From Viridothelium virens (lineage: Eukaryota; Ascomycota; Dothideomycetes; Trypetheliales; Trypetheliaceae): DNA of 64,000 nucleotides. The stretch is from NCBI GenBank assembly GCA_010094025.1, contig ML991774.1, positions 188,821 to 252,820 of the forward strand, written 5' to 3'. Below the pieces are notes generated by a model. That model ran no database searches. It was not told the DNA's origin and was given only the letters and a program-made list of their open reading frames with translations. The translations under genes were made by a program, and so were the position numbers. Below, piece by piece: positions 4,087-63,263 of the stretch (position 1 is the stretch's first letter; the number at the start of each line of letters is the position of its first letter).

Positions 4087-4920
4087 TTGGACTTACCATG
4101 GTCCTGTAATGCCCAGATGCCAGCTATGTGACTTGTGTCACTGGCGGCGTTGAGGGGATTCCACGTCTTTGGTATTTGAGTCAGAGCACGGGCTCTCCCG
4201 TGGCAGTAACGACATGCAAGAATCCATGCTAGAAAGAGGCGTTTTGCTCAGAGCATATCAGGTGTGTAGATGGCACTGTAAATAAAAAGCAATGATACCC
4301 GATCTGATTTCTGTGAAATAGATGCTATTACTGCCTGAAGCCCCCCAAAGCAGTCTCATACAGTTTTCGGTTCTTGTCGAATGATGCAACGACCTGTGCT
4401 TTAGATCCGATTCAATTGCAAGATGCCACGAATGCAAGGAAAAGAGAATTTAATATGGCAGCAAGTCGAGGCACTTTACCCAGCGCTCCAGTATGTTGAG
4501 ACTGAAGGGTACTTGAAGAGACTTTCATCCACGTTCCTTCTGTCGCATCTAAATATCAGCAAAAAGAAAGTTGAATATCTGAAGCTTGAGATAGGACTAG
4601 GGAGATAGGACTAAGTAGGCATCCAACCGCTGCGTATATTGAAGCACGCGCTGCACCTCACCTCGGCTATCTTAGGGAGTGGCATCGATTCGTACATCTT
4701 GCTTATCATTTCTGTTAGCGCACCCCATATATTAATGCTAGTGGCTAGATCTGGAGATGGATACCTACTCAGAACCGATCTCATTTATATTCGCAATTCT
4801 CTCAAGTACTCAGCTTTCTATCAATTGACCTCTCTCTCTTACTCTACCTCTTTATCTCCATCTTAACACCAATTCTCCGCCAAAAAAAACAACAATCGTC
4901 CTCCACACAACCCCACCACC
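4087..4920. other. Intergenic region upstream of the 4921 gene
   Basis: No convincing gene. Two roughly 60-75-codon frames (4423-4608 and 4639-4866) have no recognisable features. A 13-bp near-repeat, GAGATAGGACTAG then GAGATAGGACTAA, lies within about 4588-4615. The last 80 bases are strongly pyrimidine-rich with an A-run just before the ATG, typical of a fungal core promoter and leader for the next gene. Confidence 0.5.
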
Positions 4921-5646
4921 ATGTCCGCCGCCCTCCTCTCCGCAACCGCCGCCTCTCAAAAAGCCACCACCCCAACCACCACGACGACCCCCTTCCCTCT
5001 CCTCGCCCTCCCCCTGGAGATCCGCCTCCTCATCTACCAGCACGCTCTAACCCACCCATCCCTCCCCACCCTCCGCCGCCTCTCCACCCAAGCCCACTGC
5101 TCCGACTACGTCCTGCCCGCGCTCCCAGTGTCCCCGGCCCTCCTCCTAACCTGCCGCCTCATCAACAGCGAAGCGACGCCCGTGCTCTACGGCGCCAACA
5201 CCTTCGCCGCGCACCCCTCACTCCTAACTTCCCTCCCCTATCTCGTGCGGCCGTCGGCGCCAATCCGCGACCCGGCGGTTGCACGCAGGATCCGGCGGTG
5301 GTGGGTGCATGTGCGGCTGGACACGGATCCTGCGTGGGAGGCGGCTGAGGTCTGTGCGGCGTTCGACGGCTGCGAGGAGTTGGAGGTCGAGGTCTTTCAG
5401 GCGCAGTTTGCGAGCTGTGGGTATGCGGTGTTAAGGAGGTTTGAGGGGGTCAGAGGGGTAAGGACCGCGAGGGTGTGTGGGAGTGTGGAGGAGGGGTTTG
5501 CGAGGTGGTTGGAGGGGGTGATGATGAGTGGGGTGGGAGAGAGGGTGGAGGGGCATGGTGAGGAGGGGAGGGGGCATGCGAGAGAGGGGGCGCATGAGGT
5601 GTGGACTCTAGGGGGCCAGATGAATTTGGGGAGGGATGAAAATTAG
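4921..5646 (+). CDS. Unknown 241-residue protein with an F-box/2EXR-like N-terminus
   Basis: Single exon with a good ATG context (CACCACCATG). Residues about 24-90 carry the layout LPLEIRLLIYQHAL followed by LLLTCRLINSEATPVLYGANTF. This recurs in many fungal proteins loosely described as F-box-like or 2EXR-type, probably protein-interaction modules. Nothing catalytic is visible. The second half is Glu/Gly/Val-rich and not recognisable. Base composition is extreme: the first half of the coding strand is C-rich (5041-5100: C37, G5) and the second half G-rich (5521-5580: C3, G37), with a switch near 5265. The codon usage therefore reflects DNA-level bias. The function is unknown; the N-terminal layout makes a real gene likely. 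Confidence 0.7.
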   Translation: MSAALLSATAASQKATTPTTTTTPFPLLALPLEIRLLIYQHALTHPSLPTLRRLSTQAHCSDYVLPALPVSPALLLTCRLINSEATPVLYGANTFAAHPSLLTSLPYLVRPSAPIRDPAVARRIRRWWVHVRLDTDPAWEAAEVCAAFDGCEELEVEVFQAQFASCGYAVLRRFEGVRGVRTARVCGSVEEGFARWLEGVMMSGVGERVEGHGEEGRGHAREGAHEVWTLGGQMNLGRDEN

Positions 5647-5812
5647 AGCTCATGGGCAAATGCAAAGCCGTAGATGATATGGTTGCGATGATTGTGCGTA
5701 CAGGTCGTAACATTTACTCGTGATTTTGGTATGTCTATCTCTATGGACTACCGTTTGACAAATCAGCTTGCATCGCAATTTCTAAGCTGATCATTAGCCA
5801 GATGTCGCCGAA

Positions 5813-8800: not shown

Positions 8801-8926
8801 CCCGTATGACGGTCGTGGTGGTGGTGGGGCGGCGTAAGGTGAGCTATAAGGTGAGCTATATGGCGAGCAGGTGTAGGGCTGGGCGGACGAGGTCCCGCGC
8901 TGCAAGGCCGAAGCCGGAGTCGTCAT
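5813..8926 (-). CDS. cul4: Cullin-4-type scaffold of CRL4 ubiquitin ligases
   Basis: Five exons: 8926-8006, 7941-7473, 7411-6350, 6295-5935 and 5873-5813, giving 957 residues. Introns are 64, 61, 54 and 61 nt. Residues 1-200 are a low-complexity, Pro/Ser/Tyr-rich extension containing SPYSSPY repeats. The cullin repeats follow (SIFYYMDRSYLLQSPEPS), then the cullin homology domain (KPGEMIAKYVDMLLRGG, FRFVHGKAVFEAFYKKDLA, LKTECGAGFTQNLEQMFKD). The C-terminal winged helix holds the neddylation segment IVRIMKSRK, with Lys near 903, and ends in YSYIA. Cul4 binds DDB1 and DCAF receptors through its N-terminus and Rbx1 through its C-terminus. It works in DNA repair, replication control and heterochromatin. 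The sequence fits Cul4 better than Cul1 or Cul3. Confidence 0.93.
8836..8871 (-). repeat. 12-bp tandem repeat inside cul4 exon 1
   Basis: Two perfect copies of AAGGTGAGCTAT (plus strand 8836-8847 and 8848-8859) are followed by a diverged third copy to 8871. On the coding strand they encode Tyr-Ser-Ser-Pro units of the disordered N-terminus, so length changes keep the frame. Confidence 0.75.
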
Positions 8927-9346
8927 GACGGCGACGATAAAGCTGCAACTCGAATCCGACTACCCGACGACGATTGTAGAGGAACAGCAATTTCTTGCTC
9001 AAACTTCTATCTGTGTACCGTGTCTGCCTATATAAGCTGAACTGCTCCCTCTATTCTCCCAAGCCATGCCCAGCTGACGTATGACATACACCATTTTCCT
9101 AAGGTGCGATCCGCCACGGGCTTGGGCTGAAACGCCAACTGAAGACAGCCGTCTCTACGATCAAAATCGATGTTTTAACACGGTCAAATGATCATCGAGG
9201 AATGAGTAGAATAACGTCCATTTACTTATCCAGAATGGGCCTCGCTCGCTTCAGCCGCGCGTGCTTGGCAAATTGGTATCTCTATTACAGACTCAGCCAA
9301 CAACACCAACGCCCCTAATTAGCACAATTCATCCCGTATTCCTTGC
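8927..9346. promoter_or_regulatory. Promoter region of cul4, with the 3' end of mgm1
   Basis: A 420-bp gap between two minus-strand genes. A TATATA core at 9029-9034 lies about 105 bp upstream of the cul4 ATG and could serve as its TATA element. The part next to 9346 should hold the mgm1 3' UTR. No gene is visible. Confidence 0.4.
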
Positions 9347-17547: not shown

Positions 17548-18787
17548 ATGCAGCCACTGATCGCCATCTCTGCCATTGTCGCACTCCTCTATCGTGCCTA
17601 CTCCCGCCGATCTCTAACACCACTCGGCCTCGTAGTTGCAGGTATCACGGCCACGATCCATGCCATTCATCCATGGAGCGTGTTCTTCACTCTCCTCGGC
17701 GTCTTCTTCCTCGCTGGCAGTGCTGTCACTAAGGTACTTACTGCTATTTGTTTCTCCCCAAAATAAAACGTGTCTTCCTTCTCCAAGATCGGCCTTTACA
17801 ATTATGTCCTAGCACGTCCCAGGCACCTTAGGTTACCACCTCTTCCAATATCTCATCTCATCACAGGTAAAACACGATGTCAAAGCCCGGCTGACTCTAT
17901 CCGCCTCTGGCACCTCCGGTGGCGAAGGGCCACGCACCCACATCCAAGTCCTCGCCAATTCCCTCGTCGCCTCCACCCTCATCATCCTGCACGCCCGCAA
18001 GCTCGCCGCCGAGCCCGCCCAATCAGCGTGCTGGCCGAAACGCAGCGACGTCCTCGTCGTGGGCATCATCGCGTAAGCTCTGCTCTCCTCTCACCCTTCT
18101 CCTCCCATCTTCTCCATCATCCTCCCTCGCTTCCCCCCCCCTCCCCCCTCAGTCCCACACACCCCTCCGGATCCACTCCGAAGCCACCCCCCACCACCTA
18201 CCCACCTCAGCTCGACTAACCGACGATGCCTCCACAGCAACTACGCCGCCGTCGCCGCCGACACCTTCTCCTCCGAACTCGGCATCCTCTCCCCCACGCC
18301 CCCACGCCTCCTGACCTCGCTCGGCCCACCGCTACGCCCCGTCCCGCGCGGCACGAACGGTGGCGTCACGCCGACAGGGCTCCTCGCGGGGCTGCTCGGC
18401 GCCGCGCTCATCGCCGCCACCGCTGTGCTGTTGACGCCGTTCTGCGGTGGGGAGTGGAGTATTGCGGACAAGGCGGCGTTTGCGGGCGCGGTGGTGGCGG
18501 TGGGAGTGATGGGCAGTCTGCTGGATAGCGTGATGGGTGGGGTGTTGCAGGCGAGTGTGGTGGATGTCAGGAGTGGGAAGGTGGTGGAGGGGGAGGGGGG
18601 ACGGAAGGTGTTGGTGGGTGGTGGGGAGGGGAGGGAGAAGGGGCGGTCGAGCCGGAAGGTGGAGAGTGGATGGGATGTGTTGAGTAATAATGGGGTGAAT
18701 TTGCTGATGGCGGCGAGTATGAGTGGAGGGGCGATGGTGGCGACGTGCTGGTTTTGGGGCTTGCCGTTGTCTGGTGTTCTGTGGTAG
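17548..18787 (+). CDS. TMEM19/DUF92 family integral membrane protein
   Basis: Exons 17548-17733, 17867-18072 and 18238-18787 encode 313 residues. Introns are 133 and 165 nt, clearly longer than most in this window. The protein is largely hydrophobic with several membrane segments. It carries DUF92 signature stretches: SASGTSGGEGPRTHIQVLAN, ANYAAVAADTFSSELG, RGTNGGVTPTGLLAG and WDVLSNNGVNLLMA. The family includes human TMEM19 and the plant phytyl-phosphate kinase VTE6; the fungal activity is unknown, and a prenyl/phytyl phosphate role is only a family hint. A Gly/Glu/Arg-rich loop (about residues 245-275) interrupts the domain. The gene sits on a composition switch: C-rich to about 18420, then G-rich, and the second intron is also extremely C-rich. 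Confidence 0.85.
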
Positions 18788-19370: not shown

Positions 19371-23340
<3,970 letters not shown>

Positions 23341-25623: not shown

Positions 25624-26583
25624 AGATGCTGAGAAATGACAGCAATGAAAAGCGAAGGATAAAGAAAGGTGGAGTAGGTCAAAGGAAGTGGAGAAGGCGA
25701 GTCAAGCAGCTGATGATCTAACTCAAGGAGAACGACACTCTGTGGACCTACTGAAGTTTGATATGACATTGAAACCCATTGGGTGGCTCTTGCTCGCTCT
25801 TATACTGCAAGTATCCGCGTGTAAGGCGTGGTATGAAAGCAGTGACCGGATAAGGTTCCGCTATCGTGGGCATAGTGGCTGCCGAAAGTAGACGGCGCTA
25901 ACCGGCCTCTGCAACACCGCCCCGGAGCCGCATGGACTTCCAAGACGAGGGAGCAAGTAAGGGGGCAGACCTCCAGACTAGAGAAGACAATTGACTATCT
26001 TCACAACGTCTGCTTTTGGTTGGCTACCGGCAGATTCAGGGAAGTCTTGTCGCTACACAAGGCTGCAGATGCCCATATCGTACTGAACCCTGGCCTGGTG
26101 AAACCAGCGGCACAGTCGCTCCCATCCGCCACAAGGTCTCCTGTTCAAACTGTTGTAAACCTGTTGCGAAGAAGACGGCAACGTCTTCCAATCTGGATCT
26201 TGTAGGGTGACTTTCCGACTGTTCTCAGCGGTCCGATGTGGCATTTTGCAACAGTGCTCAAAGCACTTCCCTCCGGCTGGGGGAAAATAAACACTGCCGT
26301 CAATTCGGCTTGTTCGAGACTGGATCAGCTTCGCTATGAAAGAATATGATTGGCTATTTTGATTCTTGCGATAACATTCAATCTCAAAAATGGATTTGCA
26401 AGGAGAATTTGAGTGGGCAGTGGTGTAATTGCCTTTTGTCAACACAAGCTTCATCACTGTGCTAGCACTTTCAACACTCACGCCTCGCGTAGCCGCATGT
26501 TCGTTTCTCCTCTAAGGCATCACCCACTTCCTTCGATCCTCCAGCACCTTAAATTAAACAAGAGTCTTGGCAAGCACCATCAA
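25624..26583. other. Divergent intergenic region between lyc1 and the RBR ligase gene
   Basis: It holds the promoters of both genes. A 42-codon ATG frame at 25763-25891 begins with a signal-peptide-like segment (GWLLLALILQVSA) and is discussed as a finding. A 134-codon minus frame (26454 to 26053) has no recognisable features. Nothing else is supported. Confidence 0.45.
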
Positions 26584-28575
26584 ATGGCTGTGCAACCTGG
26601 GAAGTCCTGCAAAGCCAAATGCTTGCAGCAAATATCAGAGTTGTTCCCCAATATCGACGTGGAATATGTCAGCGGGTTGTACGAAGAGCGTGTCAGCGAG
26701 AATGTCAATGGCGATCGTGCTCGCGAGTTGATCATCGATCAGCTTTGCGAAGCTCCGTCCTACCCTACAAAACCAGACAAACAACAAATAAAGCGCAAAC
26801 AAGCTCTGAACGACCAAGGCCATGCTAATAAAATGCGACGACACCAGCACGATGGCCAGGAGAAAATCATCGATGGACCCTCTGACCGAACTGAAGAGGA
26901 GAACGAACGCCTAGCTCGCAAGGATGGTGCCATGTTCTGCTGCCAATGTTGTTTTACTGAGGTGCCCACCAACCGAACTGTCTTTTGCAGTGGGAGCCCC
27001 AGCCATGGTCTTTGCTGGGATTGTATTCGGCGCTACGTCAATGTCGAGTTCGGAAAAGGCAAGTATCAATTCCATTGCTTCGGAGCAGAAGACTGTGCTG
27101 CGAAATTCAACTGGCAGAACGATTTTCACGAATTCATCAACGAGAATATTCTCGCAAAGCTCTGGCGTATACAACAAGACGAGGAGATCAGGCTGGCCAA
27201 TCTAGCAAATGTCGAAGAGTGCCCATTCTGTGGATTTCAGGCCATTTGCGACCAGCCCACGGGGTCTAATAAGGAGTTCGAATGTGTCCACCCGGAGTGC
27301 GGAAAGGTCAGCTGCAGACTGTGCCATCAGGAGAGGCATGCTCCCCTATCATGTGAGGAACATCGCAAAAACAAGAAAACGGATGCCAGGCACACCGTGG
27401 AGGAGGCGATGACGGAAGCGCTTGTCCGAAAATGCAACAAGTGCCGGAATCCATTCATAAAAGAGGACGGCTGCAATAAAATGACTTGTCCAAAGTGCTC
27501 CAACACGCAATGCTACATCTGTAGCGCAGACATCAACAGCAACTATGACCACTTTTTTCGAGATTTCGGTTGCCCTTTATACGGAGGAGATGTCCATCTG
27601 CACAAGAGGGAAGTCCGGAAAGCAGAAAAAACCGCGATCGCCAAGGCAATGACCGAAAATCCGGATTTGGTGGAGGCGGATCTTCAGGTCCAAGTATCCG
27701 AAGAAGTGCGACGTTACGAGGAACGCCGAAGGGAACAAGCACGAGAGCCTATGCCAGTATTACGAGAGCCGGTGCCAGTATTGCTGCCACCCTTTGTGGA
27801 TCAACAGAACCTTGGTCAGAATAATCCTCCACGACCTCAACAGCCAAATCCTGTTCCTCCGCCACCAAGACATATTGCGCGGCCATCAAGAGCCGCCGCT
27901 CGTCGTCCACGGAGGCCTCCACGAGTGGGAGACCTCGCTCTCCCGGGACAGCCTATTGGGGAGGGACCAGGTTTCGCTCAGAACCCTCTTCCAGAAACGG
28001 TGCCAATTGCCCCTCCCCAACATCTCCGCGCCAACCCAATGGCAGCTCCTCAATTTCCAGCTGCGGCTCCTGCAATGCCGCATTTCGACCCCTTCGCACC
28101 GTCCATGCAGCGAGTCGGAGGATTCGGCGAATTCAATTTCGCCGGCAACAGTGGAGCATCTGGTCTCCATCAAGATCATCTACAGGGGATACTACAGGCT
28201 GCCCCAGCCCAGCCCGTCCCTGCGGACCCAGCGGCGGGTCTTCGCTTCCCAGCCCTAGACCCTCCCATGTACAACTTTGCGGGGTACAACTTTGGGGCCC
28301 CGCCGCTGGGCTTGCAGAGGCCCGAAAGGCGGGACAGACCTGAGCCCTGGAGGGACGCAGCGTTGGAAGCGGGCCTGGTGGGGTTCAACGAAGGGCTTGA
28401 GGCCTTTGCCAATGTCAGACCCAATAGAATCGGGGCGCCGCAGGGCCCGACGGGAAGGGAGGGTGGAGGGGGAGTTGCCGATGCTAGGGACGATGTCACT
28501 GGGGATGGGAACTTTCAGAATGGCTTTGGTCATGGCCATGGCCACAGTCATGGTCATGGTTATTTCAACGGGTAG
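26584..28575 (+). CDS. RBR (RING-in-between-RING) E3 ubiquitin ligase, RNF216/TRIAD3-like
   Basis: Single exon. I chose the ATG at 26584 (663 residues) because the CUE-like helix region (CLQQISELFPNIDVEYV) begins just after it; the first in-frame ATG is 26497, adding 29 residues. RING1 starts near FCCQCCFTEVPTNRT. The in-between RING follows (ECPFCGFQA through CRLCHQ). RING2 is RKCNKCRNPFIKEDGCNKM; Cys297 in GCNKM is the likely catalytic thioester cysteine by analogy with RNF216. A helical, charged segment and a long Pro-rich C-terminus follow, ending in a His-Gly repeat. RBR ligases take ubiquitin from an E2 onto that cysteine before transferring it. The substrate is unknown. Confidence 0.88.
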   Translation: MAVQPGKSCKAKCLQQISELFPNIDVEYVSGLYEERVSENVNGDRARELIIDQLCEAPSYPTKPDKQQIKRKQALNDQGHANKMRRHQHDGQEKIIDGPSDRTEEENERLARKDGAMFCCQCCFTEVPTNRTVFCSGSPSHGLCWDCIRRYVNVEFGKGKYQFHCFGAEDCAAKFNWQNDFHEFINENILAKLWRIQQDEEIRLANLANVEECPFCGFQAICDQPTGSNKEFECVHPECGKVSCRLCHQERHAPLSCEEHRKNKKTDARHTVEEAMTEALVRKCNKCRNPFIKEDGCNKMTCPKCSNTQCYICSADINSNYDHFFRDFGCPLYGGDVHLHKREVRKAEKTAIAKAMTENPDLVEADLQVQVSEEVRRYEERRREQAREPMPVLREPVPVLLPPFVDQQNLGQNNPPRPQQPNPVPPPPRHIARPSRAAARRPRRPPRVGDLALPGQPIGEGPGFAQNPLPETVPIAPPQHLRANPMAAPQFPAAAPAMPHFDPFAPSMQRVGGFGEFNFAGNSGASGLHQDHLQGILQAAPAQPVPADPAAGLRFPALDPPMYNFAGYNFGAPPLGLQRPERRDRPEPWRDAALEAGLVGFNEGLEAFANVRPNRIGAPQGPTGREGGGGVADARDDVTGDGNFQNGFGHGHGHSHGHGYFNG

Positions 28576-29055: not shown

Positions 29056-31038
29056 TTATCCTCCTCCATTAACTGCCTTTTCGGCAGTCCTTCCCTCAAA
29101 CTCTATCGAATCTCGCAGAAACACACTGAAATCCTCGATCGCTTCGTTCAAATCAAACGAACCATCCAGCCCATTCACCCCGGTACTAGCCTCCGCAACC
29201 GTTCCAGGAGACCTCGATTCTCGCGACGTCGCATCCCTACCTCCACTCTCCTGCGCTGGATTCTCAGTCAATGGCATGTCTCGTCCTTCCGGCCTTACTT
29301 CGTTATTCCGCCCTTGCGGAATCAGTCCAGGTTTCCGAATGGTATTGAAGGCAAAAGGCGAGACGCCTGTCAGAACGTCCTGGGTGCTAATGTGGGGCCC
29401 GGTCAGGGTAATTTTTCGTGTACTGTCTGCTGGTGGTATGTATGGAGGGATGGATGGGGTAGCGACGACATCATTGTGAGGAGTGTTGTGGAGTTCGGCC
29501 GGTGAGATGAGGGTATCCTCTAGAGCACGCTGAGTAAGGCGGAGGCCGATTTGGGAATTGATGTCTGTGGGGCAAGAAGCTGTGGCAGAGGGTGGGTCTG
29601 GCGGCACAGTTTCGGAAACGAGTTTCTTTGGGTTGGGTTGCTTGAATTGGATCGGGCTGATAGGGGGCTGACCGTCGTTGATCTCTACAGCTTGGGCTTC
29701 GACATTATCGGGATCCGAGAGTATGGAAGCTCCAGATGTCCTTAGAACATTACGAATATGAGTCGATATCTTCTTACTTGGGGTTGTATCTGGCGGTTGC
29801 ACAGGCAAAATGCTATTGGTGAACTGCTGAATAATAGCCCAGTCTTCTCCACAAGATACCTCGAGGGCTGGTGCTGTTTGTAGAATCTGGCCCTGATCTG
29901 ACGCCTGGATGTCTTTATGGTTCAACGGAGCTTGATGAGAGCCATCATCTCTATTTATTTCCGTCCGCCTCTGAAATACAAACGGTGATGAAGTGTCGCA
30001 TTTCATGACTGCTTGATTGGGATTGCTCGCTGGTAGGGTACGCCGTTGATTCTTGCGAGAGATTGAACCATTTTTGATACGAGAAGCAGTCCCCGACTGG
30101 GTGCATCTAAAGGCGGCTTCTCGCGCAGACTGATGTGAGACGCCATCTTGTGAGACTTCAGACTTCCGGGCATCTTCTGTAGATTGGAGCGCTTCAAGGT
30201 TTCTATTGATTTTGTGGCTCAGACGCTCATCGTCCCTTTCGGAATTAAGATCAATGACCTGGGCAGAAGCGCCAGGTCGTTGCAAATGCCTTGTATCCAA
30301 TTCGCCTGACTTCGAGGCACATGACAGAGGGCTCAGGTCCTTTGGACGGTAGGTGTCAGTTCGGACATTGATAGGTGTGAAGCCAATAGTGATGCTTGCA
30401 TTTGACTGATGATTTTGATCCTGAGCAAGCCGGTCCGGTTCGTTGGCTAAGAGAGTTCCATTAGAATTTTTAGCTTGCTCGAGACGTCTGAATGGCCTTC
30501 CTGGAACGACTGGTTCTACTGTGTCATGCATCTGTTCACCCTTGGCATCTTGTGTCTTGTTGGAGCCTAAGCTTACTGTGCGGTTCTTTGACGAACGCTT
30601 TACAGATGGCTCAGGGACAGTTGTCCCTAATTCCTTTGAAAAGGCCGTCTTTTTAGAAACCTTGGCTCTTTTCCGCAATTGAGAGTTTTTGGAACCGTGC
30701 TGATGAGTTTTCGCCAGGACGGTCGAGCCGACCCTGCTGCCGCCTGCTCGGGCGGACGCATTGGATTTGCTTCGAGCTCCTGAAGTATCTGAAGTCTTGG
30801 CGTCCCTCCAGGGATTGGTCCATTCTGAATTAAAAGGGCCTTTCAACAGAGCAGACATGATGAAGATGGGCCGAGACTTCAGATAGTCCTGCGCATGCTG
30901 TTCGATTCTCCTTCGTTTCGCAGATCGTCCTGGATCTCCCATGTCTGGTTCTGAGTCTGATGATGGATTCTCCTTCCCCGGCGGCCAAGCTTCATGAAAG
31001 AGTTCCAATTTCCCGTTTCCGTAGTTGATGAGCTTCAT
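29056..31038 (-). CDS. Conserved-looking unknown protein, probably nuclear
   Basis: Single exon, 660 residues from the ATG at 31038 (an upstream in-frame GTG was not used). The N-terminus MKLINYGNGKLELFHEAWPP, a basic cluster AKRRRIEQHAQDYL (about 38-51) and SALLKGPFNSEWTNPWRD (about 61-78) look conserved and folded. From about 80 the chain is Ser/Thr/Asn-rich, charged and probably disordered, with a second basic stretch (RKRAKVSKKTAF). The last 40 residues (FDLNEAIEDFSVFLRDSIEF) form a likely helix. I recall the N-terminal layout from uncharacterised ascomycete proteins but know no function. It is divergent from the septation scaffold gene, 365 bp apart. Confidence 0.75.
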   Translation of the reverse strand: MKLINYGNGKLELFHEAWPPGKENPSSDSEPDMGDPGRSAKRRRIEQHAQDYLKSRPIFIMSALLKGPFNSEWTNPWRDAKTSDTSGARSKSNASARAGGSRVGSTVLAKTHQHGSKNSQLRKRAKVSKKTAFSKELGTTVPEPSVKRSSKNRTVSLGSNKTQDAKGEQMHDTVEPVVPGRPFRRLEQAKNSNGTLLANEPDRLAQDQNHQSNASITIGFTPINVRTDTYRPKDLSPLSCASKSGELDTRHLQRPGASAQVIDLNSERDDERLSHKINRNLEALQSTEDARKSEVSQDGVSHQSAREAAFRCTQSGTASRIKNGSISRKNQRRTLPASNPNQAVMKCDTSSPFVFQRRTEINRDDGSHQAPLNHKDIQASDQGQILQTAPALEVSCGEDWAIIQQFTNSILPVQPPDTTPSKKISTHIRNVLRTSGASILSDPDNVEAQAVEINDGQPPISPIQFKQPNPKKLVSETVPPDPPSATASCPTDINSQIGLRLTQRALEDTLISPAELHNTPHNDVVATPSIPPYIPPADSTRKITLTGPHISTQDVLTGVSPFAFNTIRKPGLIPQGRNNEVRPEGRDMPLTENPAQESGGRDATSRESRSPGTVAEASTGVNGLDGSFDLNEAIEDFSVFLRDSIEFEGRTAEKAVNGGG

Positions 31039-31403
31039 TTCCACCGAAAGATACTTTCCCGAGCATTCTCGACAAATCCGGACATTTATTCCTCTATAGG
31101 AAGCTTCGTAGATTACTTACATTACGAACAGTATATGTAGGGTACAGAGTAGAATAGTACTGTAGCTGAGGTGGCGAGGATGGGCGGTTGCTGGGCAACC
31201 AGGCCCCACACTGCAGTGATGGATGCCGATCGCGTCCTGCCGGCCGCGTCTTGCCCAGTCGACACGATGAACGAAAGGCATATTATTGAACATCTCACTT
31301 CTGCGCGGCATTCATACTGGATATTTCAAGGTCAATAATGTGATCAGTCTTTCAACCGGTCTTGCAAGCGCCGCAACCCCCTACGGTCGCGCCTCCCTCA
31401 ATC
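31039..31403. promoter_or_regulatory. Shared promoter of the 29056-31038 gene and the Cdc11/Nud1-like gene
   Basis: A 365-bp gap between divergent ATGs. It must hold both promoters; co-regulation through the cell cycle is possible but inferred. No TATA box is obvious. Confidence 0.45.
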
Positions 31404-40100: not shown

Positions 40101-41955
40101 TCAGCAAGCAGTTGTTGATACTCGACGAAAAAGCTTAGGTATCAATCTCTCTCCTTCGCCGGATACTGGTACACCTGAGAACGAACCATCTTCGGTGGCT
40201 TCGGACGGCATAGCTGGACCTGATGAGCATCGACATGCTGTGCGTCATAAGGGAAGCGCTGTTGACCTTATGCAGCGGGGACAGTCAAACAATAAGGCCA
40301 ATGCCGAAATCAGCACCTCATCTGCTAATGCATTTGGCAAAGTTGATGGAAACTATAATAAGGATGGAGCTTACCAGTCACCTCTGGCCTTGGCACAAGA
40401 CCAAAGTAAACGAAAGCCATCTGCTATTCGATTTCAGAACGCGCATACTTATGATGGGAATGATCCAAGTATCTTGAAGTTGCTCGACACTCTCTACCTT
40501 GAGAATTATCCAGTTGATGCGGTTGAGTTTGGTCCCATTATTCAGCCTCTCAGCCGACGTCAAACAATTAGGCGCAGTAATGGGCAGGCCTCTGCAACGC
40601 CTTGGCGACCTGAAGGCATCTTAGTGGCCACGTTCAGCGAGCATACCGCTCCGGTCACACGTGTAGTCGTCGCACCAGATCATGCCTTCTTTCTCACTGG
40701 ATCTGACGATGGCTCTGTAAAGGTATGGGATTCTGCCCGCTTGGAACGTAACATTGCGCATCGTTCCCGACAAACACACCGTCACCCCCCAGGAACCCAA
40801 ATCTCCAGTCTAGCTTTTGTCGAAAATACCCACTGCTTCATCAGCACCAGTACCGACGGTAGCGTCAATGTTGTCAAAGTCGACTACATCGAATCTAATG
40901 CCTCCAGCCGCTATGGCAAGCTGCGCGTCCTCCGTGAATGGCAGCTCCCGGACAACGAGTACGCCACTTGGTCCGAACACTTCAAATCCGAAAACCAGTC
41001 CATCCTGATCCTCTGCACGAACCTCTGCCGCGTCGTCGCCATCGATCTGCGCACCATGAGCACCCTCTACGAATTCGCAAACCCGGTCCAGCACGGCACA
41101 CCCAACTGCTTCTGTCTCGACAAGCGCCATCACTGGCTCCTCCTCGGCACCTCCCACGGCATTCTCGACCTATGGGACCTGCGCTTCCGTCTGCGCGTCC
41201 GAGGCTGGGGATTCGCCGGAGCCTCGAAGATCCACCGCATCGTCGTCCACCCCGTCCGCAGCACGCGCAAGAAGAAGGTGTGCATCGCTGGGGGCACAGG
41301 GCAGGGAGAGGTCACCGTCTGGGATCTGGAGAAGTTCGTCTGTCAGGAGGTCTACCGCACGGCGGGGAGCAAGGAGACCTTGCGCGGCTTCGATGTCTGG
41401 AAGATCGAGGAGGAGAAGCCGGAGGGGATGCTGGCGCGGTTTGCGGTCGTTGGGGGAGGAGCGGACCCAAGCGTCGCCGCGGTGGACCGCGGCGTCCGCG
41501 CAATTGCGACCGGTGTCCATGTACCGGAGGATGGCAGCGAACCGAGGCATGGGTTCTTTGTATCTGCAGGCCCCGACTGGAAAGTAAGGTTCTGGGATAT
41601 GGACCGTGTCCAAGCGTCGAAGGTTGTGAGTGGCTTGGATGTTGACGAGGGCCAGCCCACTTTCGAGCAGAGCGAGGTAAATCAGGATACCTCAATGGTT
41701 TTCGAGAAAGCGAATTCGGGAGGCGGGAGACCTTCGGGGCCGGGTAGAGCTGGCTCAAGCAACAGAGTGCCGTCAAATTCATCGGCAAAGAGGACGAGTT
41801 CGGGTAGCAAAGGGAGAACGGGTATCGTCAGCGTACAGCAACAGAAGTTGTTGCACAGTCACTTGGACACTGTGATGGATGTGGCTTTGTTGGAATACCC
41901 CTATGGGATGATTATCTCAGTGGACAGGTCGGGAGTCATTTATGTATTCCAGTAA
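37146..41955 (+). CDS. vps15: Vps15, kinase-like regulatory subunit of the Vps34 PI3-kinase
   Basis: Exons 37146-38534 and 38593-41955 encode 1583 residues; the intron is 58 nt. MGQGYSL fits N-myristoylation. The kinase-like domain (about 30-310) has the family's HGDIKTEN catalytic loop (H143) and DFSSSF in place of DFG. A HEAT-repeat solenoid follows (about 380-800), then a low-complexity linker and a WD40 propeller from about 1140 to the end (LTGSDDGSVKVWDSAR; last blade ends GVIYVFQ). Vps15 recruits Vps34 to endosomes and autophagosomes in complexes with Vps30/Beclin and Atg14 or Vps38. The propeller part is GC-rich with a C-to-G switch near 41340, unlike the AT-richer first 3.5 kb. Confidence 0.95.
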
Positions 41956-44156: not shown

Positions 44157-47156
44157 ATGCCTCGCGCAAAACTCAAGCGCAATGCCGACACAATCGATTT
44201 GACGGGCGATAGCGATGATCCAAATGAATTGCGCCCAACACAAAATCCGCAGCATATGAAGACTCCGCGGGTTTCGGAGGGCAGTACTGCTTCGACTGCC
44301 GCCGAAGACTACCTTGATGATGATGACGAGGCTGAGACCGATGGTTTCATACAATCCCAAGAAGCCCTAAATCAAGCCTTTACCAACTATGTGCCTTACG
44401 GTAACAATAATAATAACCTTGCATCATCCATTATTTTACTAATCTTTAGATAGGTACTCTGAGAAGTAAGATAGTTGGTGTCAGATATTACACTGGCTAT
44501 GCCACTATCGGCGAAATGGTCCTCTTGAAACGAGAACCACATAACCCCGTAGGACAAGCTACTCTTAATCATATGCCGTAGCCAACGAGTGTTGCATTCT
44601 AACCAGGACATAGTACGATAGCAATGCTATTCAAGTGCAGAATGTCCACGAAACTCAGATTGGACATATCCCACGGACGGTCGCTGCTGAACTAGCAAAG
44701 TATATGGTAAGGATCTAGCAAATCAAGCGATGGATCTCCAGTCGACTGATTGTCATTGTAGGACTCGCAAGATCTTTTCATCGAGGGCACCGTGACTGGC
44801 CATAAGGGAGAATTCGATTGTCCGCTAGACCTCAGATTGTATGGAACTTCAGATCCGCTCGAGCAGATTCGTCTTAAAGAGCGCATGCAATCTGATCGGC
44901 TCCCACTCGAAGATTATCGGCAAAGAGAGAAAGCTGAGAAACAAAGGAATAAGGAACTCCTTGCAGCCCAGAAGAAGGCCCGTAGCAACAAAAAGATACC
45001 AAAGCCAACCAATCCGGCGGAGTTTGCAGGCAATCAAGCCGGCGGTCTGGAACCGGACCCAACTATTGAAGACATTGTTGATGAAAGCGAACGCTTCAAC
45101 CCAAGAAACGTCGAACAATTTGTCGAAAAGTTTGGCGCTGCCGAAGAGGTACTTGCTAGTATGCCAATGGCAGATCAACCTAGGGATCTTCAATCGCATC
45201 TCTTGCCTTTCCAACGCCAAGGTCTGAAATGGCTTCTTGACAAGGAATCACCCAGCGTTCCGGCCACCGGATCCAAAGATGTGGTCCAGCTTTGGAAACG
45301 CGATTCGAAAAATCAGTCTTTATTTACAAATGTTGCCACCCATTTCACGGTCAGAGAGGCGCCTGCGCTTGCGAGTGGAGGTATCCTTGCGGATGATATG
45401 GGACTTGGCAAAACTGTGCAGATAATAGCACTTATAATCGCGGACCGAGCAATGAGGAGCTCGATCAGCGCTAGGACTGGACCGACATTGATCATCTCTC
45501 CGCTCACTGTCATGAGTAATTGGACGGGACAGATGGAGCATCACATGTCCAAGAACAAACCTTTGAGAGTACTCGTCCACCATGGTCCCTCTCGGATCAA
45601 AAGTGCAAAGGACATCCAGGACGTCGATGTTGTAGTTACGACCTATGGCACGGTGACCACGGACCATTTTGGCAAATCGTCCAAGAAGGGTTCGTCATTC
45701 GGACTCTCCTCTATCGAGTGGCGGCGTATCGTTCTTGATGAGGGCCATGAAATTCGTAATCCGAGCTCCAAAAAGGCAGCTGCTGTTTCTGCGCTCAACG
45801 CCGCGTCTCGCTGGGTATTGACGGGTATGTCATAGTAACGGATTTGCTGGCAACGCACTTACTACATGCTAATCGCTCTTTTCAGGGACGCCCATCGTGA
45901 ATACCCTTAAGGATCTTTATTCCATTGCCAGGTTCCTTCAACTCTCGGGCGGTCTGGATCGCTACGAATTATTCAATCAAGCCATCATCCGACCCGTCAA
46001 CCAAGGCGACGAAAATGCCAGCGTCATACTACAGCTTCTCATGAACAGTATCTGTCTTCGACGCAAGAAAGAGATGCCTTTTATCGACCTGAAACTCCCT
46101 CCCCTCTCTGAATACGTCCATCGCATCACCTTCGAACCCCATGAGCAGGAAAGATACGACGCGCTCGCCCACGAAGCCGAAGGCACCCTCGACCAATACA
46201 AGACCCGCCGCGGCACCAGCGGCAAGGGCGCCAACGCCACCTATCAGCACCTCCTCGAAATCCTGCTCCGCCTCCGGCAAATGTGCAACCACTGGAAACT
46301 CTGCGGCCAGCGCCTGACGAACCTCATGACCGCTATCGAGACATCCGGCACAGTCGACCTAACCCCCGAAAACCGGCGCACCCTGCAGGACCTGCTGCAG
46401 CTCAGCATCTCAGCGCAAGAGGACTGCCCCGTGTGCCTGGAGACGCTGTCGCAGCCCGTCATCACCGCGTGCGCGCACGTCTTCTGCAGCGCCTGCATCG
46501 AGCGCGTCATCGAGACGCAGCACCGCTGTCCGATGTGCCGGGCTGAGTTGGAAGGGACGGAGGCGCTGGTGCAGCCGGCGAGGGAGCTGGGTGAGGAGGC
46601 GCCGATGGAGGAGCCGGTTGATGAGTCGATGAGTAGTAAGGTCGAGGCCATGTTGCATATCCTTAAGGCGTCGCATCAGAAGGCCGGGCCGAAGGTCGTC
46701 GTGTTTTCGCAGTGGACGAGCTTTCTCGATATCGTGCAGTATCATCTCGGCTTGCATGGGTATCAGTATACGAGGCTGGATGGGTCGATGTCGGTGCGGG
46801 CGCGTGATGTGGCGCTGCGCAGGTTCGATGAGGATGAGCATTGTACTATCTTGCTCGCGTCGCTGGCCGTGTGTAGTGTGGGGTTGAACCTTGTCGCGGC
46901 GAATACGGTCGTTCTGTCTGATTCGTGGTGGTCGCCAGCATTGGAGGATCAAGCGGTGGATCGAGTGCATCGGCTGGGGCAGAAGAGACCGACGACGGTG
47001 TTCAGACTGGTGATGGAGGGCAGTATAGAGGACCGTGTGATCAAGATTCAGCAGGATAAGCGCAAGTTGATGATGTTGGCATTTGCGGAGAAGGCAGGAA
47101 AGAGGATGAATAGCAAGGCGGCGAGATTGGCAGATGTCGAAAAACTTCTCGGTTAA
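44157..47156 (+). CDS. HLTF-type SNF2 helicase with HIRAN and RING domains
   Basis: Exons 44157-44400, 44454-44548, 44614-44706, 44762-45824 and 45886-47156 encode 921 residues; introns are 53-65 nt. The HIRAN domain (about 82-175) reads YGTLRSKIVGVRYYTGY, closely like human HLTF, and binds 3' DNA ends in that family. The SNF2 ATPase has DDMGLGKT (355-362) and DEGH (470-473). A C3HC4 RING (about 679-716, CPVCLETLSQPVITACAHVF) sits between the ATPase lobes. The C-terminal helicase lobe ends with VDRVHRLGQKRPTTVFRLV. Relatives remodel stalled forks and polyubiquitylate PCNA with Ubc13-Mms2 in error-free damage tolerance. RING wording favours HLTF over Rad5, but a Rad5 assignment is not excluded. 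From about 46050 the gene is GC-rich. Confidence 0.92.
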
Positions 47157-53961: not shown

Positions 53962-54079
53962 CCCTTTCCAATCGCATGGTGCAGCGCGCCATAGCGAAAA
54001 TAAGAGTTTCTTAGGTGTCGTGCATGTACTACTTTCCACATGTAGACACTAACATTCAACTTCGCCCTTCGCCCGAAGT

Positions 54080-54285: not shown

Positions 54286-54561
54286 CAGAGAACGAAGTTT
54301 AAGTTGGGTGCGACTGCTGGCCGTTGCTTCGGCCCGCACAGCCCCTTTCCGATCAGTTTCCACCTCACCGTTGAAATCCTCTGGACCTTTAGCTGAGATG
54401 TTGTCATAGGTAAGCAGCAGACGCAAACAAGCTCTAGATGATTCCTATTGTAAAGGGTCCAAAGTCAGCTCCCTGGTCAGGCTTAGACCCGCATGAAATG
54501 ATTACAGAAGGGGTGTGCGATACTGGGGGTTTCCTCGAATACCCCCGCCAGCTACGATCTG

Positions 54562-57994: not shown

Positions 57995-58049
57995 GTAAGT
58001 TCACTGGCTCCGCCTAACCTACTTCCATATCTGACTGGCTTCCTTACAG
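57995..58049 (+). other. Predicted 55-nt intron in the nha1 5' UTR
   Basis: GTAAGT donor, an internal CCTAAC branch-like site and TTACAG acceptor span 55 nt, the modal intron size in this window. It lies about 210 bp upstream of the nha1 ATG, so it would be a leader intron. Confidence 0.45.
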
Positions 58050-58261
58050 ACTGGGCGCATCCGAATCGTGTATGCATCCGAATCGCAGACCTGAAAACTT
58101 GGTGCAGGAGCGTAAAGCCGGGCCGTCCGATCAACGGCTACGGGCATTCGAAAACTTGACGATTTTACTACCTAGATGAAACAGTTGCGATTAAAATTCT
58201 GTTTCCTCTTCTGAACATTTACCAAAGAAAAGGCCCATCGGACGGGGCTACCTAGAATAAT

Positions 58262-61200
58262 ATGGCTTGGGAACAACTGGATGTTAACAAGCCACATTTG
58301 GTCTACATTATACTCGGAGGCTTTACCAGCCTTTTTATGCTGTGTTCTTCCGTCATCAAGGAACGTCTTTACATAGGCGAAGCTACCGTAGCCACGATAT
58401 GTGGTATTATTTTCGGGCCCCATGCCGCGAATCTGATCAACCCAGCAACCTGGGGCAATACCGATCAAATAACACTTGAATTCGCTCGTATTGTTTTGGT
58501 TGTCCAATGCTTCGCTGTTGGCGTCGAGTTGCCTAAATACTACATGGAGCGTCACTGGAGGTCTGTCACCTTTCTGTTAGTTCCGGTTATGGCTTTCGGC
58601 TGGCTTGTCACGAGTCTTTTCATCTGGTGGATGGTTCCTCCCCTCAACTGGCTAGACAGTCTCTGTGTCGCTGCCTGTGTCACTGCGACTGATCCCGTCC
58701 TCGCGTCATCAGTGGTCGGCAAAGGCAAGTTTGCAAAGCGTGTGCCGAGACATTTGCGTGATTTACTCTCCGCCGAATCGGGATGTAATGATGGCATGGC
58801 TTTTCCCTTCATTTATCTGGCACTTTATCTGATCAAATATCGCCCGAACGCGCATGAGGTTGCTTTTCATTGGTTCTGTTATACTATTCTCTACGAATGT
58901 ATCTTTGGTGCTTTTTATGGCGTCTGCGTAGGCTATGCCGCAAGACACGCTATTCGATGGGCTCACGAGAAGGATTTGATAGATCGTGAAAGCTTTCTGG
59001 TGTTTTACTTTGTTCTTGCTTTGTTCTGCGCAGGCTCAGGCAGCATCCTGGGCATGGACGACTTACTGATCGGTTTTTCTTGCGGAGTGGGCTTCAGCAA
59101 TGATGGATGGTTTCTTGAGAAGACCGAAGAGTCGCACGTCTCCAATGTCATTGATCTTCTCATCAATTTGGCTTTCTTTGTTTACTTTGGAACAATTATA
59201 CCATGGGCACAGTTCAATGCTGATGTCATAGGCTTGTCCGCTTGGCGATTAGTTGTCATCGGACTCTTCGTGATTTTCTTCAGAAGAATTCCGATCATGA
59301 TGGCTTTGAAACCCATCATACCGGATATCAAGACATGGCGTGAAGCCTTATTTGCTGGACATTTCGGTCCAATTGGCGTGGGAGCCATATTCGTGGCTAT
59401 TCTCGCGCGTGCGGAATTGGAGACAGACACCACCACGCCCTTGGCAGTTCTGCCAGAACCAGGCTTCGAACATTTGAACATCATCGAACTGATCTGGCCG
59501 ATCACAACATTCCTCGTCATCTGTTCGATTATCGTACATGGTTCTTCCATTGCAGTATTCACACTCGGAAAGCATATCAACACGCTGACCCTCACCATGT
59601 CGTACACACAGGCCAATGAAGAGGGCCCATCCTGGATGGACAGATTGCCACGTATCCAGTCTCGCTCCAAGAGCTCTATGTCACTGCGAAGACCTGATGA
59701 TACTGAATCATCGATGGATGAGAAGCTCGAGTATCCAGCAAATACGCTGTCGCCCGCGTCTCCTGTCGGGGCTCCTCGCAACTTTCTACGTAGACAAAAG
59801 GACGACGAGCCTACCAGCCGGTCCTCTAGCCGACAGCGACCACGTTCGAAGAAGAATTGGGAGCACGGTCTGAGACCTGGGGGCCCTATCAGCCAATCAG
59901 CAATCGCACCACAGGCTCGCCGTGGTGATGGTTCCAACATCCCTCCCGCTCCTAGTAGGAGTGATTCTGAGACTATAGCCATGAAAGGTAGCGACGAATC
60001 CCCAGGAAGCAGCGTTGAGCAGCAGCAGCAGCCCGTATCAGAAGAACCTGAGGAAGAGGTTTACAAGGAAGGGGATAAACTTGTCTTTGAAGATGAAGAA
60101 GGGAATGTGCTCGATGTTGTTCAGAGTCATGGAGAAACCAAAGACGAAAGAACCAAGCATGAAGTAGAGGAAGGCTTAGACTTGATGAAGAAAAAGCATA
60201 TCCACCATGGTGTTGCTCACACAGAGGACAATCATCCAACACATCAGCCACACCGGGCAGAATCTGGCAAGGACAAGGTGGAAGCTACTGCACAAGATGG
60301 TGCACAAGATGGTAATCGGCCTGGCAGGTTTAGGGACCGGCTCAAGCGAATGGATACACTCAAGCGAATGGATACATTCAAGGGCTGGAACCGCGGTCAA
60401 GCAAGTGAGAAACCTTCTGAAATTGCCAAATCTCGTCCTGAGCCCAAGCGCGGCCCGGCTCTGGCTTACCAATTTGGTAATACCATCATTGTCGAAGACG
60501 AGGATGGGGAGGTGTTGAAGAAGTATGATATCCCGGCCGATCGCAGAAAGTCTTACGCCGATCCTTCCCGCACAAAACAACGTTTGGCTCGGATGGGCCA
60601 GTACCTGGGCATGGGTCATCAAGCAGCTGAAACAACAGCTGGACCCTCAAGTCAGCAGTCTGGAGCCCAGGAGAAGCCAAAGGGTGCTGAAGAAGAAGAC
60701 GACGAGCGTATCCGCTTCACCGTCGGCGCTGGTGGTCGACGGATGAGTAAAATAGAATTCATCCAGCAGATCCAGAAGCTCGATCCTAAATCCCGCAAGG
60801 AGTTCGTCGAGCAGAGCGACGTTCCGGAGGAAGTCAAAGACGAAGCCCGCGCCGACGCACAAGAGCACGCCGACAACAAGCGCCGCGCTACGGATCCCGA
60901 CATCTCGATCTCCCCCGGCGCTGAGATCAACCTCTCCAACAATACCTCCTCCGAATCTACAGACGCTGCTACGGCAGCAGCCATCGAGAAAGCTATGTCC
61001 CATGAAGATGCCCCTTCAACCGGTCCAGACGGCCTCACCCGCGTCCAGTCGAATCGCTCCGAAATCCCCTTCCACTCCCTCCCCGCCGACCTCCACCAAC
61101 TCTCGCCGGGCCGCAGCGAGACCGCCGCCCAACGCCGTCGACGCCTCGCCTCTCGCTCGCGCCGCGACGAGGATTCAGACGATGACGGAACCGAACGCGT

Positions 61201-61525
61201 GCCTCCGCAACATGCGGTCTCAGCCACCAGGCCTCGCGGGAGTGGGCCCGCCATGCCACCGCATGGGAGGTTGCATACGCAGGAGGGGGAGACGGCGGCA
61301 GAGCGGAGGAGGAGAGAGGGTGCGTTGGGCATTTCGCGGCAGGAGGAGAGTAGTGATGAAGATGAGAGTGCGCCGAGACAGGTGCCGAGTGGGGCGGTGA
61401 CGGAGGAAGGGCCGGTCACGACGTCGGCGGCGGCGGCAAGGACACCGGGGATACGATTTGCGGATCAGCCGAGTACGGGGTCGAGGTTGAGATGGCATGA
61501 TAGTGTGGGGAAGAGAAAGGGATAG
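58262..61525 (+). CDS. nha1: Nha1/Sod2-type plasma-membrane Na+(K+)/H+ antiporter
   Basis: Single exon, 1087 residues. About 12 membrane segments fill residues 10-430, opening HLVYIILGGFTSLFMLCSSV. They carry the transport-site motifs TATDPVLAS (Asp near 145) and SAESGCNDGMAFPF (Asn-Asp near 176), characteristic of CPA1 fungal exchangers. The remaining 650 residues are a hydrophilic cytoplasmic tail, acidic and basic by turns, with segments such as FEDEEGNVLDVVQSHG and FGNTIIVEDEDGEVLKKYDI that recur in Nha1 proteins. Nha1 exports Na+ and K+ in exchange for H+, setting salt tolerance, pH and potential. The tail holds two perfect short tandem duplications. The last 700 bp switch from C-rich to G-rich near 61235. 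Confidence 0.93.
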   Translation: MAWEQLDVNKPHLVYIILGGFTSLFMLCSSVIKERLYIGEATVATICGIIFGPHAANLINPATWGNTDQITLEFARIVLVVQCFAVGVELPKYYMERHWRSVTFLLVPVMAFGWLVTSLFIWWMVPPLNWLDSLCVAACVTATDPVLASSVVGKGKFAKRVPRHLRDLLSAESGCNDGMAFPFIYLALYLIKYRPNAHEVAFHWFCYTILYECIFGAFYGVCVGYAARHAIRWAHEKDLIDRESFLVFYFVLALFCAGSGSILGMDDLLIGFSCGVGFSNDGWFLEKTEESHVSNVIDLLINLAFFVYFGTIIPWAQFNADVIGLSAWRLVVIGLFVIFFRRIPIMMALKPIIPDIKTWREALFAGHFGPIGVGAIFVAILARAELETDTTTPLAVLPEPGFEHLNIIELIWPITTFLVICSIIVHGSSIAVFTLGKHINTLTLTMSYTQANEEGPSWMDRLPRIQSRSKSSMSLRRPDDTESSMDEKLEYPANTLSPASPVGAPRNFLRRQKDDEPTSRSSSRQRPRSKKNWEHGLRPGGPISQSAIAPQARRGDGSNIPPAPSRSDSETIAMKGSDESPGSSVEQQQQPVSEEPEEEVYKEGDKLVFEDEEGNVLDVVQSHGETKDERTKHEVEEGLDLMKKKHIHHGVAHTEDNHPTHQPHRAESGKDKVEATAQDGAQDGNRPGRFRDRLKRMDTLKRMDTFKGWNRGQASEKPSEIAKSRPEPKRGPALAYQFGNTIIVEDEDGEVLKKYDIPADRRKSYADPSRTKQRLARMGQYLGMGHQAAETTAGPSSQQSGAQEKPKGAEEEDDERIRFTVGAGGRRMSKIEFIQQIQKLDPKSRKEFVEQSDVPEEVKDEARADAQEHADNKRRATDPDISISPGAEINLSNNTSSESTDAATAAAIEKAMSHEDAPSTGPDGLTRVQSNRSEIPFHSLPADLHQLSPGRSETAAQRRRRLASRSRRDEDSDDDGTERVPPQHAVSATRPRGSGPAMPPHGRLHTQEGETAAERRRREGALGISRQEESSDEDESAPRQVPSGAVTEEGPVTTSAAAARTPGIRFADQPSTGSRLRWHDSVGKRKG
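60289..60376 (+). repeat. Two short in-frame tandem duplications in the nha1 tail
   Basis: A 12-bp unit (TGCACAAGATGG) is repeated exactly at 60289-60312. An 18-bp unit encoding LKRMDT is repeated exactly at 60341-60358 and 60359-60376. Exact identity suggests recent slippage. Confidence 0.8.
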
Positions 61526-61982
61526 GGAGATAGATTTATGGGAGAATGGTTAGGCGAGAAGTGTTTTGTTTGGAGTGGTACTGGGTTCAACATTGTCCAT
61601 ACGATAGGGCTACTACATGTATCGTGCAATAATTCATATAGATGTCGCAAAATAGTGATGCAGTTCTGGGTGCTTTTAGTATGAACAATGACATCCAAGC
61701 CGTCTTCGGACTCTAATAGACGAATATTCCGTGAAGAAAATCTATTTAATTTTTAGACTAGTGAACGTTTAGAGAGCAAGTAATGATTAGATTCGACCAT
61801 TCCACCGCGCTTGGGTACTCGAGTCCCCCCAAAATGAGTGATCCTAACGCAACAAGATAGAGCTTTCCAAGGTCTATACTGATTTCAGGTCATCGCAAAT
61901 ACCACATCTATGACTTACAGTCAAATGCCTTCTTGCCGCCGTGTGATGAGAGACCAAAGCGTCTACCCACCAAACGCCAGGA
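61526..61982. other. Convergent intergenic region between nha1 and hem3
   Basis: 457 bp of 3' flanks, moderately AT-rich. No gene or notable hairpin seen. Confidence 0.5.
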
Positions 61983-63263
61983 TTAAGCCTCCCCTTGCTG
62001 TTCAATGATATTACGATTCAGATTGATCTTCTCCAATATCTTGTCCGCTCCCTTCTCGACTAATACCCTTGCGATATCCCAACCCAACTGGTCCGCCTCT
62101 TCTCTATTTGTCACCCTCCTCGTCATTTCCGCCTCCACTGCCTCCGTCCCATCCACACTCACTACAATTGCTCTCATCACCAGCTCATCCGTCTCCTCCT
62201 CCTCATCCTCCTCTCTCTTCTCCTCCACCGCCTTCCCATCAGCCCCATACTCCCTCGCCGGCTTAGCACCCACCCCAACCCCCGCCCTAAACCCCGGCGC
62301 GGCCCCAGCCCCCTTCTTCCTCCCCACCCACTCCGTCTCCACTCCAATCGGCACACTACACCCCCCCTCCAGCGTCCTCATCAGACTCCTCTCCGCCAAA
62401 CACGCCCTCATCGTCCTCTCACACACAATCCCCTGCACCAACCGCCCCACGCGCTCATCCCCCACCCTGACCTCCACCCCCAAGCCCCCCTGCCCCACCG
62501 CATGCAACATCCCGCCCTCGCGACTGCTCAGATACGCCGTGATGCGCGCCTCCCGCCCAATCCGCGCCAGCCCCGCCGCCGCCAGGATCAGCGCCGCGAA
62601 CTCCGAGTCGGCCGCGTCGAGCTTCGCGAGCCGCGTGTCGATGTTGCCGCGGATGTCGGCGATGCGTAGGTGCGGGTAAGCGCGTCGGAGCTGCGCGCTG
62701 CGGCGCACGGAGGAGGTGCCGATGAGGGAGCCAGTGGGGAGAGAGGAGAGTGTGGTGTGGGTGGAAGAGAGGCGGGGGGAGATGATGAGGGCGTCGCGGG
62801 GATCGTGTCGGGAGGGAATGGCGCCGAGGGTTAGGGTTTGGGGGAGCTGGGTGGGCATGTCTGGAGGAGGGGGTTAGTTGGTGGTGATGGGCGAACGGGG
62901 GAGGGAGGGGGCCTTGTGGTGGGGGTACGGGATGAGTGGATTTGGCACACCTTTCAAGCTGTGGACAATCATGTCCAGCGTGCCATCGAGGAGGAGCACT
63001 TCTAGATCCTTGGTCCAAAGGCTCTTGGCATTGAATTCTGGCAATGGCGTCACTTTGTCCCTGTCACCCAGCGTCTTCATGGAGTGAACTGCATAGTGCT
63101 GGTCTGGCCATGCTTGTTTGAGGGCTTTCTCAACTTCGTTGGTCTGTACGAGCGCGAGCACGGAGCTGCGAGTGCCAATTGTCACCTTTTGAGTAGAAGG
63201 ACCGGTGTCGGATTGTGGCTCGGGAATTGTCGAGGCTGGATTGAAATTCGGCTCGGTGGTCAT
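61983..63263 (-). CDS. hem3: Porphobilinogen deaminase (hydroxymethylbilane synthase)
   Basis: Exons 63263-62951 and 62860-61983 encode 396 residues; the intron is 90 nt. ATG 63263 was chosen; an upstream in-frame TTG was rejected. IGTRSSVLALVQTNEVEKAL opens domain 1. The splice rebuilds HSLKDMPTQLP, which holds the catalytic aspartate. GTSSVRRSAQLRR and RGNIDTRLAKL bind substrate carboxylates, and Cys272 in EGGCSVPIG carries the dipyrromethane cofactor. The enzyme joins four porphobilinogens into hydroxymethylbilane, an early cytosolic step of heme synthesis. Residues about 293-332 form a Gly/Ala then Glu-rich insertion in domain 3. The middle of the gene sits on a strong plus-strand C-to-G composition switch near 62620. 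Confidence 0.95.

Follow-up and report, generated by a model that had tools for sequence, protein, structure and literature searches.

What makes a short block of fungal DNA turn abruptly from C-rich to G-rich along one strand? The question is raised by a stretch of 64,000 nucleotides from Viridothelium virens (assembly GCA_010094025.1, contig ML991774.1; G000:C4:188821-252820 in our coordinates, and referred to here as the window), in which a first-pass annotation made from the letters alone described seven GC-rich blocks with a C-rich left arm and a G-rich right arm on the plus strand. We refer to such a block as a dipole, and to its turning point as a C-to-G flip. Strong C-to-G flips are frequent in the sampled part of the genome, are centred on a peak of GC content with arms that are nearly mirror images, and lie within genes. 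The dipoles are an extreme local form of the known average skew of fungal genes, and the candidate explanation that we favour, with a probability of about 0.45 as judged from sequence, is that they mark sites of recurrent meiotic double-strand break repair; transcription-linked mutation is its main rival.

The assembly comprises 30.7 Mb in 175 contigs, and the sample consists of the window together with 238,820 further bases of the same genome, totalling 302,820 bases of which 2,820 are N. Flips were scored by a contrast (D), obtained by subtracting the GC skew of the 350 bp on the left from that of the 350 bp on the right, and flips <700 bp from a stronger one are hidden by the greedy spacing of the flip list; the C-to-G flip of the C12:6332 gene is hidden in this way by an adjacent strong G-to-C flip. 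In joined-stretch coordinates, the C1 stretch begins at contig base 100001 and the C12 stretch at 50001. Genes were modelled with a three-periodic hidden Markov model trained on the sampled sequence itself, and because it misses genes and exons, the gene starts, neighbours and 3′-half fractions given below are rough.

Strength and polarity of the flips

All seven blocks (7/7) have the C-rich left arm and G-rich right arm attributed to them, and the six 60-base counts quoted for them (C37/G5, C3/G37, C37/G8, C6/G34, C32/G15 and C8/G33) are exact. A single block of opposite polarity, also described earlier, is equally real, with a contrast of -0.76 and a GC content of 0.61. Together the eight blocks cover 6,050 bases, and they contain 32 of the 40 60-mers (from 1,066 consecutive 60-mers in the window) in which C and G counts differ by at least 20. 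The blocks with their optimal flip points, a further flip and a probable intron are as follows.

4901..5646, plus strand: C-to-G block in a DUF7730 gene (coding 4921-5646), flip ~5273
17901..18787, plus strand: C-to-G block in a DUF92 membrane protein gene, flip ~18438
18074..18240, plus strand: probable intron in the C arm of the DUF92 gene, with C at 91 and G at 14 of 167 bases; boundaries set by eye
28001..28575, plus strand: weaker C-to-G block at the 3′ end of an IBR-domain gene (frame 26413-28575), flip ~28279
29056..29700, minus strand: C-to-G flip absent from the first-pass annotation (frame 29056-31116), flip ~29317, 262 bp from the stop
41001..41955, plus strand: C-to-G block in a WD40/VPS15-like gene (frame 38572-41955), flip ~41270, with G bias up to the stop
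46201..47156, plus strand: C-to-G block in an SNF2/RING/Helicase_C gene (frames 44762-45835 and 45873-47156), flip ~46533
61001..61525, plus strand: C-to-G block at the 3′ end of a Na+/H+ antiporter (Nha1) gene (frame 58256-61525), flip ~61237
62061..62950, minus strand: C-to-G block in a porphobilinogen deaminase (hem3) gene (frames 61983-62873 and 62874-63338), flip ~62595
60..830, no strand assigned: G-to-C block, GC-rich, no predicted coding

The gene identities of the blocks are Pfam matches, and these, like the probable introns, mating-type alpha-box matches and size of the genome, point to a fungus, probably a filamentous one. The blocks with flips at 28279 and 41270 fall under a contrast cut of 0.55. 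The minus-strand gene of the flip at 29317 faces the IBR-domain gene of the flip at 28279.

The contrast never exceeded 0.53 in size in order-3 Markov sequences (5 x 300 kb), against 21 C-to-G and 7 G-to-C flips of size at least 0.6 in the 302,820-base sample, and the flips therefore exceed chance. The first-pass annotation had named equal numbers of the two polarities as the outcome that would tell against it. Numbers are indeed close among weak flips (81 C-to-G vs 87 G-to-C at a size of at least 0.3, with no condition on GC), and still 27 vs 22 at a size of at least 0.5, but not among strong ones, which are 16 vs 2 at a size of at least 0.7. Combining a size of at least 0.4 with a GC content of at least 0.58 gives 17 vs 1. 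Since weak flips have no preferred polarity, the claim is restricted here to strong or GC-rich flips. Flips are spaced along 262.8 kb of C4 (20 flips, mean gap 11.4 kb).

The same polarity is recovered when sites are picked by GC content alone, with skew unused, which makes this the unselected test. Peaks of GC content at least 0.60 over 600 bp comprise 15 C-to-G, 1 G-to-C and 8 of neither kind; lowering the threshold to 0.56 gives 21, 3 and 26, and 400-bp peaks of at least 0.64 give 15, 1 and 0. Adjacent opposite clusters of C-rich motifs lying no more than 1 kb apart are likewise C-to-G in 14 cases and G-to-C in one (two-sided p 0.001; C1 plus the first 0.63-0.78 Mb of C2), a count based on the first 100 listed places for each of two motifs, with near-identical runs thinned and a few places consisting of simple TCC or C runs.

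Composition of the arms and the GC peak

Arm composition was determined at fourfold-degenerate sites in 20 dipole genes. The C arms have C 0.58, G 0.17, A 0.14 and T 0.11, the G arms G 0.60, C 0.17, A 0.12 and T 0.11, and other genes C 0.27, G 0.22, A 0.24 and T 0.27. Fourfold skew is thus -0.54 in the C arm and +0.56 in the G arm, at GC contents of 0.75 and 0.77, and the near mirror symmetry that had been proposed for the arms holds to within ~3 percentage points. Codon positions 1 and 2 shift in the same direction by a lesser amount. The shift is largest at fourfold sites and extends to positions that alter the amino acid, so the cause acts on the DNA (or RNA) sequence and not on the protein alone.

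Mean GC content peaks at the 25 C-to-G flips examined (23 with D at least 0.55, plus two weaker ones from the first-pass annotation), with no such peak at 15 G-to-C flips. Fourfold GC content (GC4) is ~0.80 at the flip, ~0.5 by 540-630 bp on the 5′ side and ~0.45 one kb upstream. On that side the skew reaches background by ~650-720 bp, in keeping with the similar size reported for the blocks; the 3′-side fourfold profile is short, as coding ends ~500 bp past the flip. At 540-630 bp before the flip, where GC4 is already ~0.5, fourfold skew is still -0.45 to -0.57, and the skew therefore extends farther than the GC rise. Over this interval the dipole genes look as if an exchange of C for G outreaches the rise in GC.

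The blocks are local. Single genes pass from a skew below -0.6 to one above +0.6, in 100-bp bins, within ~1 kb, whereas outside the 20 strongest genes fourfold skew changes little (-0.11 over the whole gene and -0.01 in the last 240 nt), which indicates that the strong blocks are patchy. A and T are about equal at the fourfold sites of both arms, with no steady AT skew across the flips. When all positions are counted, however, an excess of A over T in all genes grows toward the stop from ~+0.05 to +0.16. Dinucleotide preferences in the arms were like those of other genes (TC 1.30/1.24, CC 0.88/0.89 and TA 0.50/0.61, respectively).

Position within genes

The first-pass annotation reasoned that a shape identical to its own reverse complement is independent of gene direction, and this was not borne out. 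Predicted coding stretches contain 21 of the 25 C-to-G flips, and the flip precedes the stop by ~120-860 bp in genes of either strand. The remaining 4/25 (C1:5558, C12:1993, C4:75137 and C4:146542) lie outside gene models in open frames whose frame and strand were picked by eye, with 75137 the least certain; here the stop is 135-347 bp past the flip. In either orientation of the gene, a coding strand that turns from C-rich to G-rich gives a C-to-G flip on the plus strand, so symmetry alone cannot separate a gene-directed process from a direction-free one.

A trend of this kind runs through the genes more generally. Mean coding-strand skew in 80 genes lies between -0.10 and -0.11 at 900-600 bp before the stop and is +0.22 over the final 200 bp. 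In 31 long stretches it is only -0.02 to -0.09 where the stretch begins at its 5′ end, and +0.11 to +0.17 over the final 300 bp. Around the stop codon of 81 genes the skew falls from +0.18-0.25 upstream to ~+0.09-0.11 over the next 60 bp, reaching zero by ~160 bp. Codon shuffling, applied to 70 genes, gave significant C-to-G flips in 22 and G-to-C flips in 5 at p 0.005; at p 0.05 the numbers are 36 and 18. Among genes of 1,300 bp or longer, 11 have a significant C-to-G flip, which lies in the 3′ half in 9 of them; in several short genes the flip is ahead of mid-gene (fractions 0.37-0.42).

McLean and Tirosh (2011; PMC3315797) reported that fungal genes are C-biased early and G-biased at the 3′ end, and gave both mutational and adaptive explanations without deciding between them. 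The dipoles share with that skew a coding strand that is C-rich and then G-rich toward the stop with a sign change within the gene, an effect at fourfold sites, and a G bias entering the 3′ untranslated region. Significant genes are a sizeable minority in both (33% in Candida albicans, PMC3315797, and the 22/70 above, by a different test). Those published patterns are mostly species-wide averages, in contrast to the steep single-gene flips found here with their GC-peak centres and near-mirror arms. What is known is thus the average 5′-C/3′-G skew of fungal genes, and what is new is the local dipole form; a literature search, with most subscription journals outside its coverage, found no report of local single-gene dipoles with a central GC peak and mirror arms.

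G-to-C flips differ in setting. The 15 of size at least 0.55 have a GC content of 0.50-0.53 near the flip, and 11 of them lie no more than ~1.35 kb upstream of a predicted coding start, a count made without a chance control and including some that are also near another gene's end. Flips in this position are what the C bias published for the surroundings of gene starts in fungi would predict. Of the rest, one is between two convergent 3′ ends, two are just past a gene, and one has no nearby prediction. The window's G-to-C block at 60-830 is probably of a different class from the C-to-G blocks. It is downstream of the 3′ end of a minus-strand gene (1611-2621) and ~1.1-1.9 kb upstream of the 5′ end of the left-hand minus-strand gene, and it contains repeated short motifs, around TGCTTGGG and CCCAACC.

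Meiotic break repair as a proposed cause, and its rivals

A peak of GC at the flip together with near-mirror arms speaks for a process that works on DNA in both directions, for instance repair of meiotic breaks that treats the two strands unequally, and it is from these two features that we infer a mechanism. The first-pass annotation had suggested a process spreading both ways from a centre, and the centred GC peak and the one-sided polarity of strong flips are as such a process would give. Double-strand breaks would be made and repaired repeatedly at the dipole centres during meiosis, with only one strand left single-stranded on each side of the break. Mismatch repair in the heteroduplex would favour G:C pairs, and it would also preferentially place C on whichever strand has its 3′ end towards the break. 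As generations accumulate, GC content would rise at the centre, with C-rich DNA to its left and G-rich DNA to its right.

Several observations are compatible with such a history. Besides the polarity excess of strong flips and their position in genes, these include the early end of the G arm in two genes and the differing flip codons of related SNF2 genes, both described below. The assembly contains one match over cut-off to the TP6A_N (Spo11-type) domain and two mating-type alpha-box matches (G000:C147:13784-14185 and G000:C69:116082-116324), each with one in-frame stop in a search blind to introns. In Zymoseptoria tritici 1,435 of 2,578 hotspots are in exons (PMC5844332), and mismatch repair beside a break can be strongly strand-biased (PMC9001825). 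The dipoles resemble hotspots of GC-biased gene conversion in their kilobase-scale local rise in GC, silent sites included; C/G strand polarity is not among the features described for such conversion in the portions of the literature used here. They also resemble the mutation asymmetry at human meiotic breaks in that strand bias reverses across a centre (PMC7615360), the human asymmetry being one of rare variants and that found here one of base composition; in the human data no asymmetry is present in the central 100 bp either side (PMC7615360).

A number of points weigh against repair of meiotic breaks as the cause. Forward-strand mutations in the flanks of human hotspots are C>N and A>N, and the gain of C in the left arm here is apparently opposite in sign to that human loss of C (PMC7615360). 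GC-biased conversion has been reported to be extremely weak or absent in Zymoseptoria, which has many intragenic hotspots (PMC5844332), and the assay with strand-asymmetric mismatch repair had no G/C preference (PMC9001825). The flip at 29317 combines a contrast of 0.82 with a GC content of only 0.53, so that strong skew is possible without a GC peak. The 20 genes used for arm composition were chosen on skew, and their effect size is accordingly a selected one. Finally, the G arm reaches the stop codon in most dipole genes and the skew drops there, which fits a gene-linked cause.

In the transcription-linked rival, which follows a proposal of McLean and Tirosh, mutation or repair would track the changing state of RNA polymerase II along the gene, producing a coding-strand C bias early and a G bias near the stop, with the blocks being simply the strongest genes. 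The average trend has been published for many fungi (PMC3315797), the 80 genes examined here follow it on average, most G arms extend to the stop, and the position of most G-to-C flips upstream of coding starts, albeit without a chance control, also fits. However, transcription predicts neither a GC peak at the flip nor equal, mirrored arms, and it does not account for the patchiness of the strong blocks. Nor does it predict that the G arm should end early, as it does at C4:51494 and C4:93958, where skew is back to ~zero or below well before the stop; at C4:116107 it weakens before the stop yet stays positive. We regard this explanation as possible but doubtful.

A variant involving convergent or antisense transcription, in which the sense transcript makes the left arm and that of a downstream gene the right arm, is quite unlikely. 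The coding-strand C bias of two facing transcripts would yield a C-to-G flip, and several dipole genes are indeed tail to tail with another gene, but a convergent downstream neighbour is present in 12/20 dipole genes (20 of the 21 listed had a neighbour) and in 29/59 others (p 0.45), a comparison that is weak evidence because the gene finder misses genes.

Slightly less probable still is selection on the mRNA or protein, through pairing of the C-rich and G-rich parts or through favoured amino acids or codons. When the blocks of 15 of the 20 dipole genes were folded, 4/15 were more stable than codon-shuffled arms at z < -2, and the shift of codon positions 1 and 2 is also in its favour; the mean z, however, was only -0.73, the other 11/15 were unremarkable, and the largest shift is at fourfold sites. 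The probable DUF92 intron is also C-rich, read here with no other introns as a control and with the possibility that introns are pyrimidine-rich anyway. Related SNF2 genes argue in the same direction. Among SNF2-type relatives (5 other loci of 48 matching places), three (L029, L030 and L031) have a C-to-G dipole near the 3′ end and two (L027 and L028) have none, and the flips fall at differing codons of the shared region.

Replication origins, which the first-pass annotation had also raised and which would leave G-rich leading strands on either side of an initiation site, have the classic C-to-G polarity on the plus strand in their favour but are highly improbable, since the skew does not continue with the forks and is gone by ~650-720 bp on the 5′ side, far short of fork travel, the GC peak is unaccounted for, and the flips on C4 recur every 11.4 kb on average inside genes.

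Should repair of meiotic breaks prove to be the cause, the hotspots of a non-model fungus would be mappable from one assembly, each as a C-to-G flip, and base composition would reveal which strand mismatch repair chooses when meiotic breaks are mended. More tentatively, the dipoles may be fossil meiotic break sites in genes, at which conversion was both GC-biased and strand-asymmetric, and the average skew of fungal genes may partly be their sum. Should transcription be responsible instead, the dipole genes would be strong cases in which to work out an effect reported in 2011 with two competing explanations. With either cause, gene finders and studies of codon usage in such fungi must take account of arms in which ~60% of the silent sites are C, or ~60% G.

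The window had no Rfam RNA at gathering scores and no tRNA, and the hem3 region gave 2 weak bacterial matches in a search of a plasmid collection. The SNF2-type locus L029 has two successive C-to-G dipoles ~1 kb apart, with flips at ~1800 and ~2930, the second of which overlies an open frame of the minus strand, past the locus's stop at 2277.

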